NCBI GenBank assembly: GCA_016776605.1
Contig: JADHTB010000001.1
Span: forward strand, 62,001 to 126,000
Length of the DNA stretch: 64,000 nt
DNA from: Alphaproteobacteria bacterium
Lineage (GTDB): Bacteria > Pseudomonadota > Alphaproteobacteria > GCA-2731375
Direction of reading: 5' to 3'
Both the position numbers and the translations under genes were made by a program. The notes under the pieces are model-generated. The model was not told where the DNA came from and made no database searches. It was given only the letters and a program-made list of their open reading frames with translations. This document shows, in pieces, positions 10,149 through 58,347 of this stretch (positions are counted from its first letter, which is position 1; each line of letters opens with the position of its first letter).

Positions 10149-10176
10149 CTATTCCAACTCTGATCGCGGACGACTA

Positions 10177-10275
10177 GAGCATTTTGACTCTGAAAATGCC
10201 CAAATCTTTAGAATTAGAGCAATTTTTCCAATCACTTAGAATCGCTTCGCGATTCTCATTAATTCGGAATTGCTC
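10177..10275 (+). mobile_element. 99-bp palindromic element, copy 1 (A-B orientation)
   Basis: Flanked by TA on both sides (C-TA-[GAGC...GCTC]-TA-A). Structure: module A (25 bp, 'gagcattttgactctgaaaa...'), a 15-bp spacer, and module B (59 bp) with inner hairpin 'gaatcgcttcgcgattc'. Module A here ends 'tgcccA' instead of 'tgctcA', a substitution. It lies between the convergent bamE and hppA genes. Confidence 0.9.
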
Positions 10276-10300
10276 TAACGGCCCAGATCAGTTCCACAAA

Positions 10301-12409: not shown

Positions 12410-12720
12410 AGGTCACATCCTCTTTGCTGGATCTCTTCGATGATCGTGGGGTCAAAATTTGACGCTCGCCCCTGCTATTCCGCCAGGGGCGAAAATGCGG
12501 GGGATAAATGCCAGAGAAGTTTCCGAAACGCAACCGATGCCTTTGATATGGGTTTCGCCACATCGGTCCTGGAGCATGACCATATCGCCGCAAGGCTGGT
12601 AACAGTGCGGAAGCTGGCAATTCGTCTATCGCAATAGCCGACGATGTGAGGCACTACATTATTCGATTGCTGAAACGCCCGACGGGTTTTCCGGAGCGAT
12701 TCTCTGGTGGTCCGATTCTA
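12410..12720. other. hppA leader region without a convincing gene
   Basis: About 310 bases with no ORF I believe. It holds a 13-bp palindrome 'gtcaaaatttgac' (12451-12463) and a perfect 8-bp hairpin 'cgcccctg'/'caggggcg' (12467-12491), both upstream of hppA and so probably in its leader or promoter. The 65-residue plus-strand ORF at 12440 has no family features. Confidence 0.45.
12451..12491 (-). promoter_or_regulatory. Palindrome and hairpin upstream of hppA
   Basis: The 13-bp palindrome 'gtcaaaatttgac' is 3 bases from a stem of 8 GC-rich pairs with a 9-base loop. Read toward hppA (minus strand), the hairpin comes first and the palindrome second, 42 bases before the start codon. It may be a regulator site or a leader attenuator. 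This is seen structure with no known match. Confidence 0.35.
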
Positions 12721-12819
12721 GAGCAATTCCGAATCACTTAGAATCGCGAAGCAATTCTAAGTGATTGGAAAAATTGCTCTAATTTTAAAGATCTGAGCAT
12801 TTTCAGAATGAAAATGCTC
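12721..12819 (-). mobile_element. 99-bp palindromic element, copy 2 (B-A orientation)
   Basis: C-TA on the left and TA-A on the right. Module B comes first. Unlike the other copies, both arms of B are matched: 'aatcacttagaat' pairs perfectly with 'attctaagtgatt', giving an almost uninterrupted 59-bp hairpin. Module A and spacer are well kept. It lies downstream of the MFS gene and upstream of hppA. Confidence 0.9.
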
Positions 12820-12910
12820 TAACGTATGCTTCCCACCCCTGAGCATCAAAAGACCACGAGACTCTGAAAAACATGGTGCGCAACCGATTTCGATGTGCAC
12901 CGGTTCGCCG

Positions 12911-14110: not shown

Positions 14111-14201
14111 GCGGGCAATCTAGTCGGTTGGTGACGACGCGACAAGCCGGGACTGAGAGGCTGTAGCGCGTCGGATCATCGTGGATTTCAACCGTGCGCT
14201 A

Positions 14202-14300
14202 GAGCAATTCCGAATTAATGAGAATCGCGAAGCGATACTAAGTGATTGGAATAATTGCTCTAATTCTAAATATCTGAGCATTTTCAGAATGAAAATGCTC
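14202..14300 (-). mobile_element. 99-bp palindromic element, copy 3 (B-A orientation)
   Basis: Flanks are C-TA (left) and TA-G (right). Module B carries 'gagaatcgcgaagcgatact', then the spacer 'taattctaaatatct' and module A. Its right boundary, together with the TA, forms the TAG stop of the fliL-like gene. Confidence 0.9.
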
Positions 14301-14797
14301 TAGCCACCCATGCGCAGAATATTTAGAATCAAAATGTCCTCTATACCCTTGTCGCCCACCATGCCCCGAATCAAAAGCAGCATCCGCTTTTTTAAATCAG
14401 GTAAATCTATGGCGCCGGTGTCGTCATTGACCAGTATGGGGTTGGTGAATAGTTCCGTGTGCATGGCATCCCGCAAACGAGGCAGAACCGCCTGAACATC
14501 ATTCTTTGAACCAATCCCAGCCACTTGCAGGCTCAGGGTCATTATGACCTGATATTGAACCCGTCCCCCGCTGATGATTGGCGCCGAAATAGGATCGAAC
14601 TGCACAAACTGCGATGCATCGGCCTGTTCGGCGTCTGTGCCTTGCCCGCTCGCCGCGCCCTCACCCTCTTTACCATCCGCCCCGGCATCGTGGGTAAGGC
14701 CCAAGAGTTCGTCAAGCATACCCATGGCATACAATCCACCGCCCGCACCGCCAAGCAACACGATCAACGCCAGGACACCTATGATAACTTTCTTCAC
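14300..14797 (-). CDS. fliL: Flagellar basal-body-associated FliL-like protein
   Basis: FliL-family proteins are single-pass membrane proteins around the flagellar stator. The ORF opens at 14851, but 'GTG' at 14797 directly before 'KKVIIGVLALIVLLGGAGGG' gives the usual FliL layout: a cytoplasmic tip, one membrane helix, then an acidic linker and the FliL domain ('VQFDPISAPIISGGRVQYQV', 'LPRLRDAMHTELFTN'). 165 residues. No other flagellar gene is near, so it is an isolated paralogue. Its TAG stop is shared with repeat copy 3. Confidence 0.78.
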   Translation of the reverse strand: MKKVIIGVLALIVLLGGAGGGLYAMGMLDELLGLTHDAGADGKEGEGAASGQGTDAEQADASQFVQFDPISAPIISGGRVQYQVIMTLSLQVAGIGSKNDVQAVLPRLRDAMHTELFTNPILVNDDTGAIDLPDLKKRMLLLIRGMVGDKGIEDILILNILRMGG

Positions 14798-14925
14798 GTC
14801 ACGCCCCGCATAAATTCCGCGAGCCCATTCAGAGCAATTCCGAACGGGCAATGCATCAGCACGCAGTATGGCAAAAATTGGTTATAAGAAGGTTACGACG
14901 ATGACAATGAAGACGCCGTCCATGC

Positions 14926-35540: not shown

Positions 35541-35620
35541 TGAACGCCTTTTCTAGTGGCGCGTCCCTGACATTTCAATCTCTCAATGCCGGGCCGCGCC
35601 GCTTTTTTCAAAATGCGCTA

Positions 35621-35719
35621 GAGCATTTTCATTCTGAAAATGTTCAGATCTTTAGAATTAGAGCAATTTTTCCAATCACTTAGAATCGCTTCGCGATTCT
35701 CATTAATTCGGAATTGCTC
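35621..35719 (+). mobile_element. 99-bp palindromic element, copy 4 (A-B orientation)
   Basis: Flanked by C-TA on the left and TA-G on the right. Module A is 'gagcattttcattctgaaaa...' followed by the spacer and module B with 'gaatcgcttcgcgattc'. Its right boundary and the adjoining TA make the rpoD TAG stop codon. Confidence 0.9.
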
Positions 35720-37860
35720 TAGGTATCCAGGAAGCTGCGCAGTTTGCGCGAGCGGGAGGGGTGTTTCAATTTGCGCAGGGCCTTGGCTTCGATCTGGCGT
35801 ATGCGTTCCCGGGTGACCGAGAATTGCTGGCCCACCTCTTCCAAGGTGTGATCGGTGTTCATGCCGATGCCAAAGCGCATGCGCAGCACCCGTTCCTCGC
35901 GCGGCGTCAACGAGGCCAGAACCCGGGTGGTGGTTTCGCGCAGGTTGGAATGGATCGCCGCATCCACGGGCAGGATCGCGTTCTTGTCCTCGATGAAATC
36001 GCCCAGGTGGGAATCTTCCTCGTCGCCAATGGGGGTTTCCAGGGAAATCGGCTCCTTGGCGATCTTCATCACCTTGCGGACCTTTTCCAACGGCATGCCC
36101 AGTTTTTCCGCCATTTCCTCCGGCGTCGGCTCACGGCCGATTTCGTGCAGCATCTGGCGCGAGGTGCGCACCAGCTTGTTGATGGTTTCGATCATGTGCA
36201 CCGGAATACGGATGGTGCGGGCCTGATCGGCGATGGAGCGGGTAATCGCCTGGCGGATCCACCAGGTGGCGTAGGTGGAGAATTTATAGCCCCGGCGGTA
36301 TTCAAACTTGTCCACCGCCTTCATCAGGCCGATGTTGCCTTCCTGGATCAGATCCAGGAATTGCAGGCCCCGGTTGGTGTATTTCTTGGCGATGGAGATC
36401 ACCAGACGCAGGTTGGCCTCGACCATTTCCTTTTTGGCCTGGCGCGCCTCGCGCTCACCTTTTTGTACGGTGGCGACTATGCGCTTGTATTCCAGGATCG
36501 GCAGGCCGGTCTCGGAGGCGACGGTGGAGATGCCGGTGCGGATATCCCTGATCTCGTCCCGGTCCTTGGTCGCGAAATCTCCCCAGCCCTTGCCCTTCAG
36601 GCGGCGCACGCGGGAAATCCAGCGTGGATCCGTTTCATGGCCGGAATAATGCTTCAGGAATTCCAGCCGTGGGACCCGGCGGGATTCCGCCAGACGCAAC
36701 AGCCGGCCTTCCAGGCCCAGCAGACGGCGGTTGATACCATAAAGCTGGTCGACCAGCGCCTCGATCCGGTTGTTATTCAGGTGCACGCCGGTGACCAACA
36801 AGATCAATTCGTCGTGCAGCTTAAAATAACGCTTTTCCTGCTGATCGGTCAGTTCCTGATGCTTCAGGGCAGCTTCGACCCGTAGATCCTGTACCTTTTT
36901 GAAGCGCTTGTAGACCTTGGCGATTTTTTCGAAAGTCTCGATCACCACGGGCTTCAGCGACTCTTCCATCGCGGAAAGAGACACCGTGACTTCATCCTCT
37001 TCCTCGTCGTCGCCATCGGCGTCGTCGGATGTCTCGCCATTTTCGCCCTTGGCTTCATGGTCGTCGTTGGCAGCCGGGACGGCGCCTTTTCCATTGGTTG
37101 CGCCGGGGCTGGTCGCGTCGGGGGCCGCGCTGCCATTCGCCCCCGGCGCCGTGGCACCATTCGCGCCAGTGGCATGATTGGCCATGCCCGCGTTCTTTTT
37201 GCCATCGGGGCCGGCGCCATAGGTTGCGTCTAAATCAATGATATCGCGCAGCAGGACATTGCCGGCCATCAACATATCGTGCCATTCAATCACCGCGCGG
37301 ATGGTCAGCGGGCTTTCACAAATACCGGCGATCATCGCTTCGCGGCCAGCTTCAATCCGTTTCGCGATGGCGATCTCGCCCTCGCGGGAAAGCAATTCGA
37401 CGCTGCCCATTTCACGCAGATACATGCGCACGGGATCGTCGGTACGCTCTAAAGTTTCGGTGACTTTTTCGGACGTTTTTGCGACTGCCGTGCCTTTGCT
37501 GGGTTCGGCTGCGTCGGAGTCGATGGCCGCGACCTCGACGACCTCGTCCTGATCATCATCGTCATCGGCATCGGTGGCCGCGCCATTAACCGATGCGCCA
37601 TCAGTGGTTTGCTCTTCGGCGTCATCCGCCTCGATCAAGTTCACGCCCATTTCCGACAACAAGGTCATGAAGTCCTCGATCTGTTCGGACGAGACCTGTT
37701 CCTGTGGCAATGTTGCATTCAGTTCATCATAGGTGATGTAGCCGCGCTCTTTACCCTGCGCGATCAATTTTTTCAGGTTCGCCTCGGCCTGAGAATCAAT
37801 CAGCGGACGATCGCCGCCTTCTTCCCGCTCTGTCTTTTCGACTACCTGTGCTTTCGCCAT
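35719..37860 (-). CDS. rpoD: RNA polymerase primary sigma factor RpoD
   Basis: A 713-residue sigma-70 from '[11 protein letters not shown]' (37860); the ORF's extra 28 residues are not family-like. Region 1.1 is followed by '[20 protein letters not shown]' (1.2), the non-conserved region, '[20 protein letters not shown]' (2), '[20 protein letters not shown]' (2.4) and region 4.2 near '[20 protein letters not shown]'. The non-conserved region carries an unusual Gly/Ala/Asn-rich insert ending in a stretch of acidic residues. The TAG stop is formed at the edge of repeat copy 4. Confidence 0.96.
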
Positions 37861-38177
37861 GAATGTCCGCCTATGTCTGTAATCGGCGCGGAACGCCGGT
37901 ACAATCCCGCCACAAATTTCATCGCCCCAAAATCCGCGCCGCAATAAACGCCGCCGCTCAACAGCGGCCGTTTCTCGGGCGCAGCCCGGTCTGATCGAAA
38001 TCAGCCGTAATCCCGCGTCCTATTATAACCGCTACATAGCCCATGGGGCATTACAATTGCCAGATTTTAATTGCCACATCGTTAAATATCGCAAATTGGG
38101 TAATGCAATTGAAATACCGCCGCCTAGGCACCATGGCCGCACAACGACCACAACGCGACCGTAATGCGGCAAATCAG
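37861..38177. other. dnaG-rpoD intergenic region
   Basis: 317 bases between dnaG (upstream, minus strand) and rpoD. It has short AT-rich stretches around 38050-38130 that could hold an rpoD promoter. No gene, hairpin terminator or repeat copy recognised. Confidence 0.4.
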
Positions 38178-56153: not shown

Positions 56154-57314
56154 ATGGACAACAATAGGCCGAGCCATTGGCGCGGCACGTTTTCGGCCCT
56201 CTGCGCCTTGCTGGTCGGGATCGGTCTGGCCCGCTTTGCCTATACACCTTTGATGCCCGCCCTGGTCACGGAAGGCTGGTTTTCGGCCTCTCAGGCGGCG
56301 TATCTGGGCGCGGCCAATTTGGCGGGTTATCTGGCCGGCGCGCTCCTGGCGCGAAACCTGGCGGCGCGCACCTCCACCCGGTTCGCCCTGCGCGCGGGCA
56401 TGCTGTTGGCCTGCGCGGCGCTTTTTGCCTGCGCCTCGCCCTTGTCATTCGCCTGGTTTTTCAGCTGGCGCTTTGCCGCCGGGCTTTCAGGTGGCGTCTT
56501 GATGGTTCTGGCGGCCCCCACCGTGCTGCCGTTCGTGCCGGCCCATCGGCTGGGTCTGGCCGGCGGCGTCATTTTCACCGGCGTTGCCCTGGGGATCGCC
56601 ATATCCGGCACCCTGGTCCCTGTGACCCTGGAACTGGGCCTGATGGAAACCTGGGTTTGCCTGGGCGCCCTGGCGGCGCTGTTGACAGCCCTGTCATGGC
56701 GCGGTTGGCCGGATGCCGCCAGCGGCAATAAAACCGCCAAAATTTCCCTGCCCGCCACTAGCCTGGCCCTGAAATCACTGTATCTGGAATATGGCCTGAA
56801 CGCCTTTGGCCTGGTGCCGCATATGGTGTTTTTGGTGGTCTTCATCGCCCAGGGCCTGGAACAGGGCCTGACCGTTGGGGCGCACTATTGGGTATTGTTC
56901 GGCCTGGGGGCGGTGATCGGGCCGGTCACGGTGGGCTATCTGGCTGATCGGATTGGTTTTTTACGGGCCCTGCGCCTGGGCTATGGGCTACAGGCGATCT
57001 TTGTCGGGGTGCTGATTTTCACCGATCAGACAATGGTTCTGGTGCTGTCCAGTCTGATCATGGGCGCCTTCGTGCCGGCCAGCACGACCCTGGTTCTGGG
57101 CCGGTTGCGGGAATTGCTGGCCCATGATCCAGCCGGCCAAACCAGCGGCTGGCGGCTGGCCACCATAGCCTTTGCCGTAGGCCAGGCGGCGGGCGCCTAT
57201 GGCCTGTCCTATCTGTTTGACCTTGGCGGCAATTACACCCTGCTGTTCGGCATTGGCGGCGCCGTGCTGCTGCTGGCCCTGGGCCTTAACCTACTGGCCG
57301 GGCGGCGGACCTAG
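56154..57314 (+). CDS. YbfB/YjiJ-family MFS transporter
   Basis: A 386-residue transporter with 12 helices. The start 'LLVGIGLARFAYTPLMPALV' followed by 'FSASQAAYLGAANLAGYLAG' is characteristic of YbfB/YjiJ. The loop 'GYLADRIGFLRALRLGYG' is also seen. Substrate unknown. Its TAG stop is formed by the left border of repeat copy 5. Confidence 0.88.
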   Translation: MDNNRPSHWRGTFSALCALLVGIGLARFAYTPLMPALVTEGWFSASQAAYLGAANLAGYLAGALLARNLAARTSTRFALRAGMLLACAALFACASPLSFAWFFSWRFAAGLSGGVLMVLAAPTVLPFVPAHRLGLAGGVIFTGVALGIAISGTLVPVTLELGLMETWVCLGALAALLTALSWRGWPDAASGNKTAKISLPATSLALKSLYLEYGLNAFGLVPHMVFLVVFIAQGLEQGLTVGAHYWVLFGLGAVIGPVTVGYLADRIGFLRALRLGYGLQAIFVGVLIFTDQTMVLVLSSLIMGAFVPASTTLVLGRLRELLAHDPAGQTSGWRLATIAFAVGQAAGAYGLSYLFDLGGNYTLLFGIGGAVLLLALGLNLLAGRRT

Positions 57315-57412
57315 AGCGTTTTCATTCTGAAAATGCTCAGATCTTTAGAATTAGTGCAATTTTTCCAATCACTTAGAATCGCTTCGCGATTCTCATTAAT
57401 TCGGAATTGCCC
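57314..57412 (+). mobile_element. 99-bp palindromic element, copy 5 (A-B orientation)
   Basis: C-TA on the left, TA-A on the right. Left end 'gagcgttttcattctgaaaa', spacer, then module B ending 'ttgccc' instead of 'ttgctc'. The left border forms the TAG of the MFS gene and the right border the TAG of the PrpB-like gene on the other strand. Both genes converge on it. Confidence 0.9.
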
Positions 57413-58347
57413 TAATCAGGATTTTCCGGAACCACGCTGCGGGCCACTGAATCGTCCAGAGCCTCGAATTCGTGATAGCGGATGGTATCATACAGTTCCG
57501 CCCTGGTTTGCATCTGGTCCAGCTTGCCCTGGGCGCTGCCCGTCTCAGCCAGCTCCGTATACAAATCCGCCACGGCGCGCGCGGCGACCCGCAACGAGGA
57601 TGCGGGCCAAATGACGATCTTGCAACCCAACGCCTCCAACTGCGCCGCCGTTCGTTGCGGGGTGCGGCCGAATTCGGTCATGTTGGCCAGCACCGGCGCC
57701 TTGACGGCGGCGCTGAAGCGGTGGAAATCATCATCGGAAATCAACGCATCGGGGAAGATGATATCGGCGCCCGCGGCCACGTACAGATTGGCCCGGCGGA
57801 TCGCCTCATCCAAACTCTCGGCGGCGGCATCCGTGCGCGCCACGACCAGCAGATGCCGCCGGGCCGCGACGGCAGCCGCGATCTTGCGGGCCGCATCCTC
57901 GGCCGTGGCCAATTGCTTGTCGTTCAGATGGCCGCACTTTTTGGGCAGTACCTGATCCTCGATCTGCACGGCGGCGGCGCCCGCATCCTCCAACTCGCGG
58001 ACCAGACGCATGACGTTCAGGGCTTCGCCATAGCCCGTATCGCCATCCACGATCAGCGGCAGATCCGTGGCCCTGGACAAGGTCCTGGTGGCGCCACACA
58101 GCTCTTCCATGGTCATCACGCCCAGATCAGGCAGCCCCATGCCTGCCGTCAGCGCGGCGCCCGAAACATACAGGCACTCGAACCCGGCCTTTTTCGCCAA
58201 CAGCCCTGACAGCCCATCGTGCGCGCCGGGCACACCAAGGATACCGGGCCGTTCCAACAACGCCGCCAGCCTTTGCCCCGCCGGCCTTGCATCGGCCCCG
58301 CCTGTAAACCAGATCGGATTTTGCGCGGATTGATCACCGTTTACCAT
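57412..58347 (-). CDS. prpB: Methylisocitrate lyase-like (isocitrate lyase/PEP mutase family)
   Basis: A 311-residue TIM-barrel enzyme. It shows 'PLIVDGDTGYGEALNVMRLV', 'AAVQIEDQVLPKKCGHLNDK' with the catalytic Cys of the KKCGH motif, and 'VLANMTEFGRTPQRTAAQ'. These match 2-methylisocitrate lyase (PrpB) of the propionate cycle best, though an oxaloacetate- or dimethylmalate-cleaving relative is possible, since prpC and prpD are not here. Its TAG stop lies on repeat copy 5. Confidence 0.83.
   Translation of the reverse strand: MVNGDQSAQNPIWFTGGADARPAGQRLAALLERPGILGVPGAHDGLSGLLAKKAGFECLYVSGAALTAGMGLPDLGVMTMEELCGATRTLSRATDLPLIVDGDTGYGEALNVMRLVRELEDAGAAAVQIEDQVLPKKCGHLNDKQLATAEDAARKIAAAVAARRHLLVVARTDAAAESLDEAIRRANLYVAAGADIIFPDALISDDDFHRFSAAVKAPVLANMTEFGRTPQRTAAQLEALGCKIVIWPASSLRVAARAVADLYTELAETGSAQGKLDQMQTRAELYDTIRYHEFEALDDSVARSVVPENPD

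Follow-up and report, generated by a model that had tools for sequence, protein, structure and literature searches.

A TA-targeting IS630-type MITE in an alphaproteobacterial genome for which stop codons are probably tolerated and rebuilt landing sites

Introduction

The closest described relatives of the element analysed here are IS630/Tc1-mariner-type insertion sequences, exemplified by IS630 and ISY100, with which it shares the TA target, the TA duplication, the preference for CTAG and ends in terminal inverted repeats. ISY100 duplicates TA (PMC2170065), and IS630 targets TA in CTAG, as stated by the title of Tenzen and Ohtsubo 1991 in the reference list of PMC2170065. Unlike these elements, ours is a MITE of 103 bp without a transposase, and no DDE_3 transposase was found in its own draft genome. 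It resembles, as compared by description, the IS630-Spn1-related MITE RUP of Streptococcus pneumoniae (107 bp, about 100 copies), which uses TA sites, has IS630-related ends and folds (PMC3049150, PMC2229807). RUP has been described within IS elements or close to them, whereas about half of the intact copies of our MITE lie on stop codons, mostly at CTAG. In length (about 100 bp) and target (CTAG or YTAA) it is similar to the IS5-type MITEPsy1 of Pseudomonas syringae (PMC3189936), with the difference that MITEPsy1 duplicates 4 bp and our element TA alone.

Short elements with hairpins that sometimes sit at the 3' ends of genes are also known from enterobacteria (the RU elements, which likewise duplicate TA) and from Coxiella (QMITE2). 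In the case of RU-1 (PMC2759123) and QMITE2 (PMC5896051), fusions that remove stop codons or extend genes are reported, whereas the border of the element described here rebuilds the stop. Our literature search brought up no measurement showing that a bacterial MITE prefers stop codons.

Results

A MITE family with IS630-type ends

The window (the whole 64-kb stretch of DNA analysed) contains five copies of the element with a mutual identity of 91–96% (Table 1). Searching the genome with a 32-nt core and up to 3 mismatches returned at least 147 copies, while the reversed control pattern yielded 0 matches in the same search; taken together with the five copies in the window, this shows that the repeat is not a chance occurrence. 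Relatives of the element were found in 10/10 congeners searched, at ~73–90% identity, and in none of 50 more distant genomes outside the genus. An Rfam scan of the window detected tRNAs only, and the copies match no family. With a length of 103 bp (that is, below 400 bp), no coding capacity, high copy number and the ends TA-GAGC[A/G]TTTTC and TA-GAGCAATTCC, the element is a MITE with IS630-type ends (TA-GAGC...GCTC-TA). Within the reach of our searches the family is new, although its kind, the IS630-type MITE, is already known.

The element folds far better than its shuffled versions (z of -4.7) and consists of two palindromic modules, the second of which has a TAGAGC-like end of its own and is also found as a stand-alone module of ~65 bp at C2:81034. 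The left hairpin is kept across the subfamilies: 96% of cells are paired across 20 copies, and 4 of 9 pairs show changes on both sides. For the inner right stem, in which 57% of cells are paired and the alignment has subfamilies A and B shifted against each other, covariation is unconvincing. The copies at C1:490457 and C2:32218 join an old-subfamily left part (GCGCATTCGAAG) to a young-subfamily right part.

The genome also carries a second MITE family of ~263 bp with the ends TAGAGCATTTCCGGGATATT (Table 1), which occupies CTAR sites, some of them on stop codons, and has shorter forms of 141 and 161 bp at C1:236416 and C32:85942. At C1:420989-421034 a stop codon is occupied by a 46-bp element whose inverted ends (TAGAGCAACTTGTCTGCGTT) are perfect over 20 bp.

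Table 1. Positions of the element copies, their parts and the adjoining genes (positions without a contig prefix are those of the window)
Feature	Position	Strand	Remark
MITE copy	57312..57414	+	103 bp counting the TA on either side, 99 bp without them
Left target TA	57312..57313		followed by element base G, yields the MFS gene's TAG stop
Right target TA	57413..57414		read on the minus strand, TA followed by element base G yields the PrpB-like gene's TAG stop
Left hairpin module GAGC...GCTC	57314..57338	+	pairing across 20 copies
Right palindromic module TAG(A/T)GCAATT...AATTGC(T/C)CTA	57352..57414	+	own internal TAGAGC-like end
MFS transporter gene	56154..57314	+	Pfam MFS_4; closed by TAG 57312-57314, the left border
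PEP mutase/isocitrate lyase-type (PrpB-like) gene	57412..58347	-	closed by TAG 57412-57414, the right border
MITE copy	10175..10277	+	intergenic, site CTAA
MITE copy	12719..12821	-	intergenic, site CTAA
MITE copy	14200..14302	-	site CTAG; overlaps the stop codon of the 183-aa ORF 14300-14851(-)
MITE copy	35619..35721	+	site CTAG; overlaps the stop codon of rpoD 35719-37944(-)
Second MITE family, ~263 bp	C2:14634-14896, C32:175125-175387, C25:387469-387730, C25:337372-337635

A related IS630-type element encodes a candidate mobiliser

A complete 1052-bp IS630-type element, inserted in CTAG, is present in congener G009 (L091 58-1109). It has the ends TAGAGCATTTCCGAC / TAGAGCGTTTCCGAC, encodes a DDE_3 transposase (E=3e-34) that is read in two frames, and carries the same TAGAGC ends as the MITE: its left end matches the right end of the MITE at 17/22 bases, and 12/22 positions match between its end and the left end of the MITE, i.e. 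the two elements have terminal inverted repeats in common. The frame of the transposase is split where several A follow one another, either a possible frameshift site or a possible sign that the gene has decayed.

DDE_3 matches were obtained in 9/10 congeners. The MITE's own draft genome gave no DDE_3 transposase, although, at 44 contigs and 93% completeness, this is weak as an absence. Mobilisation in trans is therefore inferred, most likely by an IS630-family transposase.

The borders of the 57312 copy close both neighbouring genes

The sequence across the copy at 57312-57414 reads ...GGCGGACC-TA-GAGC...GCCC-TA-ATCAGG. As the earlier note had claimed, the open reading frames and the sequence agree in placing the TAG of the MFS gene on the left border and that of the PrpB-like gene on the right one. 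In silico loss of 57314-57412 together with one TA gives GGACCTAATC, in which both reading frames would stop on one common TA, as TAA and TAG.

All five window sites are CTAR on one strand, in agreement with the earlier note. Two further copies had been assigned to the TAG codons of fliL and rpoD; while both do overlap a stop and rpoD is borne out by its sigma-70 domains, the name fliL is not, the Pfam search with the 183-aa reading frame having given no match.

The element targets TA, prefers CTAG and duplicates TA alone

For statistics we sampled contigs C1, C2, C25 and C32 in full, which together amount to 1.56 Mb or 34% of the genome. This sample contains 116 non-redundant matches, of which the 65 with both ends intact form the set analysed. 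Their sites are CTAG (39), CTAA (13), TTAG (7), CTAT (3), ATAG (2) and TTAC (1), with TTAA not used at all; in the background of the same sample, CTAG makes up 730 of 40,239 TA sites. A strong CTAG/CTAR preference is thus supported, with the qualification that 6/65 copies of this wider set sit at ATAG, CTAT and TTAC. Flanks rich in G+C are also favoured at occupied sites (logistic p=1e-5), as, perhaps, are the gaps between convergent genes (p=0.05).

The sites that are not CTAG are informative as to the duplication. In all 26 the two 4-mers flanking the element differ and have TA alone in common; the G and C beside TA are therefore the element's own, and the duplication is TA, neither CTA nor CTAR. 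Of the two duplications suggested earlier, TA or CTA, only the former is retained. The identical target words, together with the presence of CTAG on both sides at 38 of the 39 CTAG sites, would also fit an IS5-type MITE with a 4-bp duplication of CTAR or YTAR, similar to MITEPsy1 (CTAG or YTAA, 4 nt). This is extremely unlikely: an IS5-type 4-bp duplication is rejected by the differing side 4-mers of the non-palindromic sites, and the ends of our element match an IS630 DDE_3 element.

Stop codons are over-represented among the occupied sites

Elements were removed in silico before genes were called with a home-made gene caller, and occupied and empty sites were therefore judged alike. Of the 65 intact copies, 35 lie exactly on a stop codon, 29 are intergenic and one is gene-interior; four of the 35 sit on two convergent stops with one common TA. 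At CTAG, CTAA and TTAG sites outside gene overlap, the ratio of stop to intergenic positions is 31:26 for occupied sites vs 352:1017 for empty ones, that is, stops are enriched in comparison with empty non-coding sites with an odds ratio (OR) of 3.4 (p=1e-5). The OR is 3.3 when remnants are masked or when only well-supported genes are considered. The tabulation over 1.56 Mb that the earlier note had called for thus places stop overlap above chance (OR 3.3–3.4, p about 1e-5). Within this sampled third of the genome, 31/361 stops of the CTAG/CTAA/TTAG type without second-gene overlap carry an element border. Orientation at stops is unbiased (14:17), which argues against a strand-specific terminator role.

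How much of this excess is specific to stops? Matching for target word CTAG, flank G+C and gene arrangement lowers the OR: a logistic model with flank G+C and gene arrangement gave a stop OR of 2.1 (p=0.01), and a stratified (Mantel-Haenszel) estimate was 1.95 (p=0.048). With an OR of ~2 after matching, CTAG target preference and tolerance account for most of the stop excess, and the residual stop preference is possible but weak. The stop-codon preference put forward earlier is therefore upheld as an excess over non-coding YTAR sites, while being mostly a by-product (matched OR ~2, p 0.01–0.05).

It is quite unlikely that stops are favoured beyond sequence preference and tolerance, whether through active targeting by the transposition machinery or through selection for the 3' hairpin that a copy adds. 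Occupancy is 8.6% on the stop vs 2.3% at 1–20 bp downstream, matching leaves an OR of about 2 (p=0.010 in the logistic model, p=0.048 by Mantel-Haenszel), and the left hairpin is conserved, with changes on both sides, all of which would be expected if stops were sought out or the hairpin were of benefit. However, matching for flank G+C and arrangement removes much of the excess, no orientation is favoured, and the share of copies on stops is similar for young (23/44) and older (12/21) ones, so that there is no sign of longer retention at stops.

Over C1, C2 and three stretches of 20 kb, stop codon use is 278 TGA, 269 TAG and 192 TAA. This seems a high proportion of TAG, of which the element accounts for a minority only.

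In the two nearest congeners most orthologues stop at the same codon, mostly without the element

We searched for the gene ends of 34 stop-sited copies in the two nearest congeners, G007 and G002. The identical stop position is shared by the orthologue in about 26/30 cases in G007 and 25/29 in G002, as counted by eye, and most of these same-stop sites are element-free, with a few carrying degenerate copies on that stop. At C2:103314 and C2:265695 the relatives' flanks align over a single TA or stop, which makes them exact empty sites, and at C1:369924 the empty site is near-exact. The comparison with close relatives, which the earlier note had proposed for finding uninserted sites, was in this way answered in its favour at loci other than 57312, by stops at the identical codon in most cases and by these three exact or near-exact sites.

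The same data bear on whether the element instead landed inside genes and truncated them, its border creating new premature stops. At 57312 the C-terminus of the MFS protein differs by 5 codons from that of G007, and the relatives' stop (G002 and G007) is TGA; at a few other sites (e.g. C2:32218 and C32:63569) the relatives' stop is located 4–10 codons further. As a general account truncation is nevertheless very unlikely: a YTAR site whose TA lies in the stop frame was a stop codon already before insertion, most orthologues in the relatives stop at the identical codon, and only 1/65 copies is gene-interior after in silico removal.

Some stops appear to have been hit more than once. On the stop of C2:70443, G007 has a different TAGAGC-type remnant of ~31–33 bp, and the genome's own site at C2:167379 retains an additional TAGAGC end; we read both as repeated insertion on one stop. 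Copies placed end to end at a spacing of ~101 bp are found at C13:210725-210929 (starts 210725/210826) and C5:4071-4275 (starts 4071/4172), as expected from insertion into the border CTAG of an older copy.

A deletion has also shaped the 57312 locus

In both G007 and G002 the MFS and PrpB stops are separated by a 21-bp spacer that is absent here. The relatives' PrpB stop, TTAATC, matches the right flank of the element, and their MFS end matches the left flank. Since the spacer is present in both nearest relatives, simple excision fails to restore the ancestral sequence, and a deletion accompanied, preceded or followed the insertion. The rebuilt 'ggacctaatc' with its single shared TA is consequently correct as an excision product, while the relatives show a different state.

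One possible, if doubtful, route is that two copies had inserted on the neighbouring convergent stops and that recombination between them deleted the 21-bp spacer, so that a single copy with a stop at each border was left. The spacer kept in both relatives, with its matching stop flanks, and the existence of near end-to-end tandem copies (the C13 and C5 pairs above) are compatible with such a history; a simple loss of 21 bp, either preceding or following one insertion, however, explains the locus equally well. Moreover, 13 empty CTAA/CTAG/TTAG sites with two convergent stops on one TA are present in the 1.56 Mb, so sites of this kind do occur.

Discussion

We propose, with a probability of roughly 85%, that the element is a non-autonomous MITE of the IS630/Tc1-mariner type that targets TA and for which stop codons are tolerated, rebuilt landing sites. 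An IS630-family transposase acting in trans would cut the MITE out and insert it at TA, preferably at CTAG with G+C-rich flanks, and insertion duplicates TA alone. As both ends, read inwards, begin with TA-GAGC, a TAA or TAG stop that is hit becomes TAG regardless of which end adjoins the gene, and where convergent stops lie on one TA, a TAG is rebuilt on both sides. In the stop frame YTAR necessarily spells a stop codon, and insertions at stops therefore leave the protein unchanged. Gene-interior insertions, near-absent, would presumably have been purged by purifying selection acting as a filter (or avoided), so that the tolerated CTAG sites remaining would be stop codons and gene-end gaps. 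Furthermore, because an insertion at CTAG recreates CTAG at both borders, the same stop can be hit again without harm. Further MITE families with TAGAGC ends in this genome also occupy YTAR sites, 4/7 of them on stops.

Several points count against our proposal: no DDE_3 transposase was found in the MITE's own draft genome, the left end of the MITE matches the L091 end at only 12/22 positions, the 21-bp spacer of both nearest relatives is missing at 57312, genes were called with a home-made caller, and the matched stop enrichment (OR ~2, p 0.01–0.05) is not fully accounted for by target and flank. In a bolder reading the element would be drawn to or selectively kept at stops beyond its CTAG preference, its ends having evolved to read TAG both ways and so to provide a renewable harmless site, and it would possibly also supply a 3' hairpin to the mRNA. 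We consider this unlikely.

Taken as a tolerated and rebuilt landing site, the stop codon provides a measured example of how a CTAG target, GAGC ends and the tolerance of genes together turn stops into a niche that is safe for a MITE and renews itself, and any genome that carries IS630-type MITEs lends itself to the same stop-overlap test.
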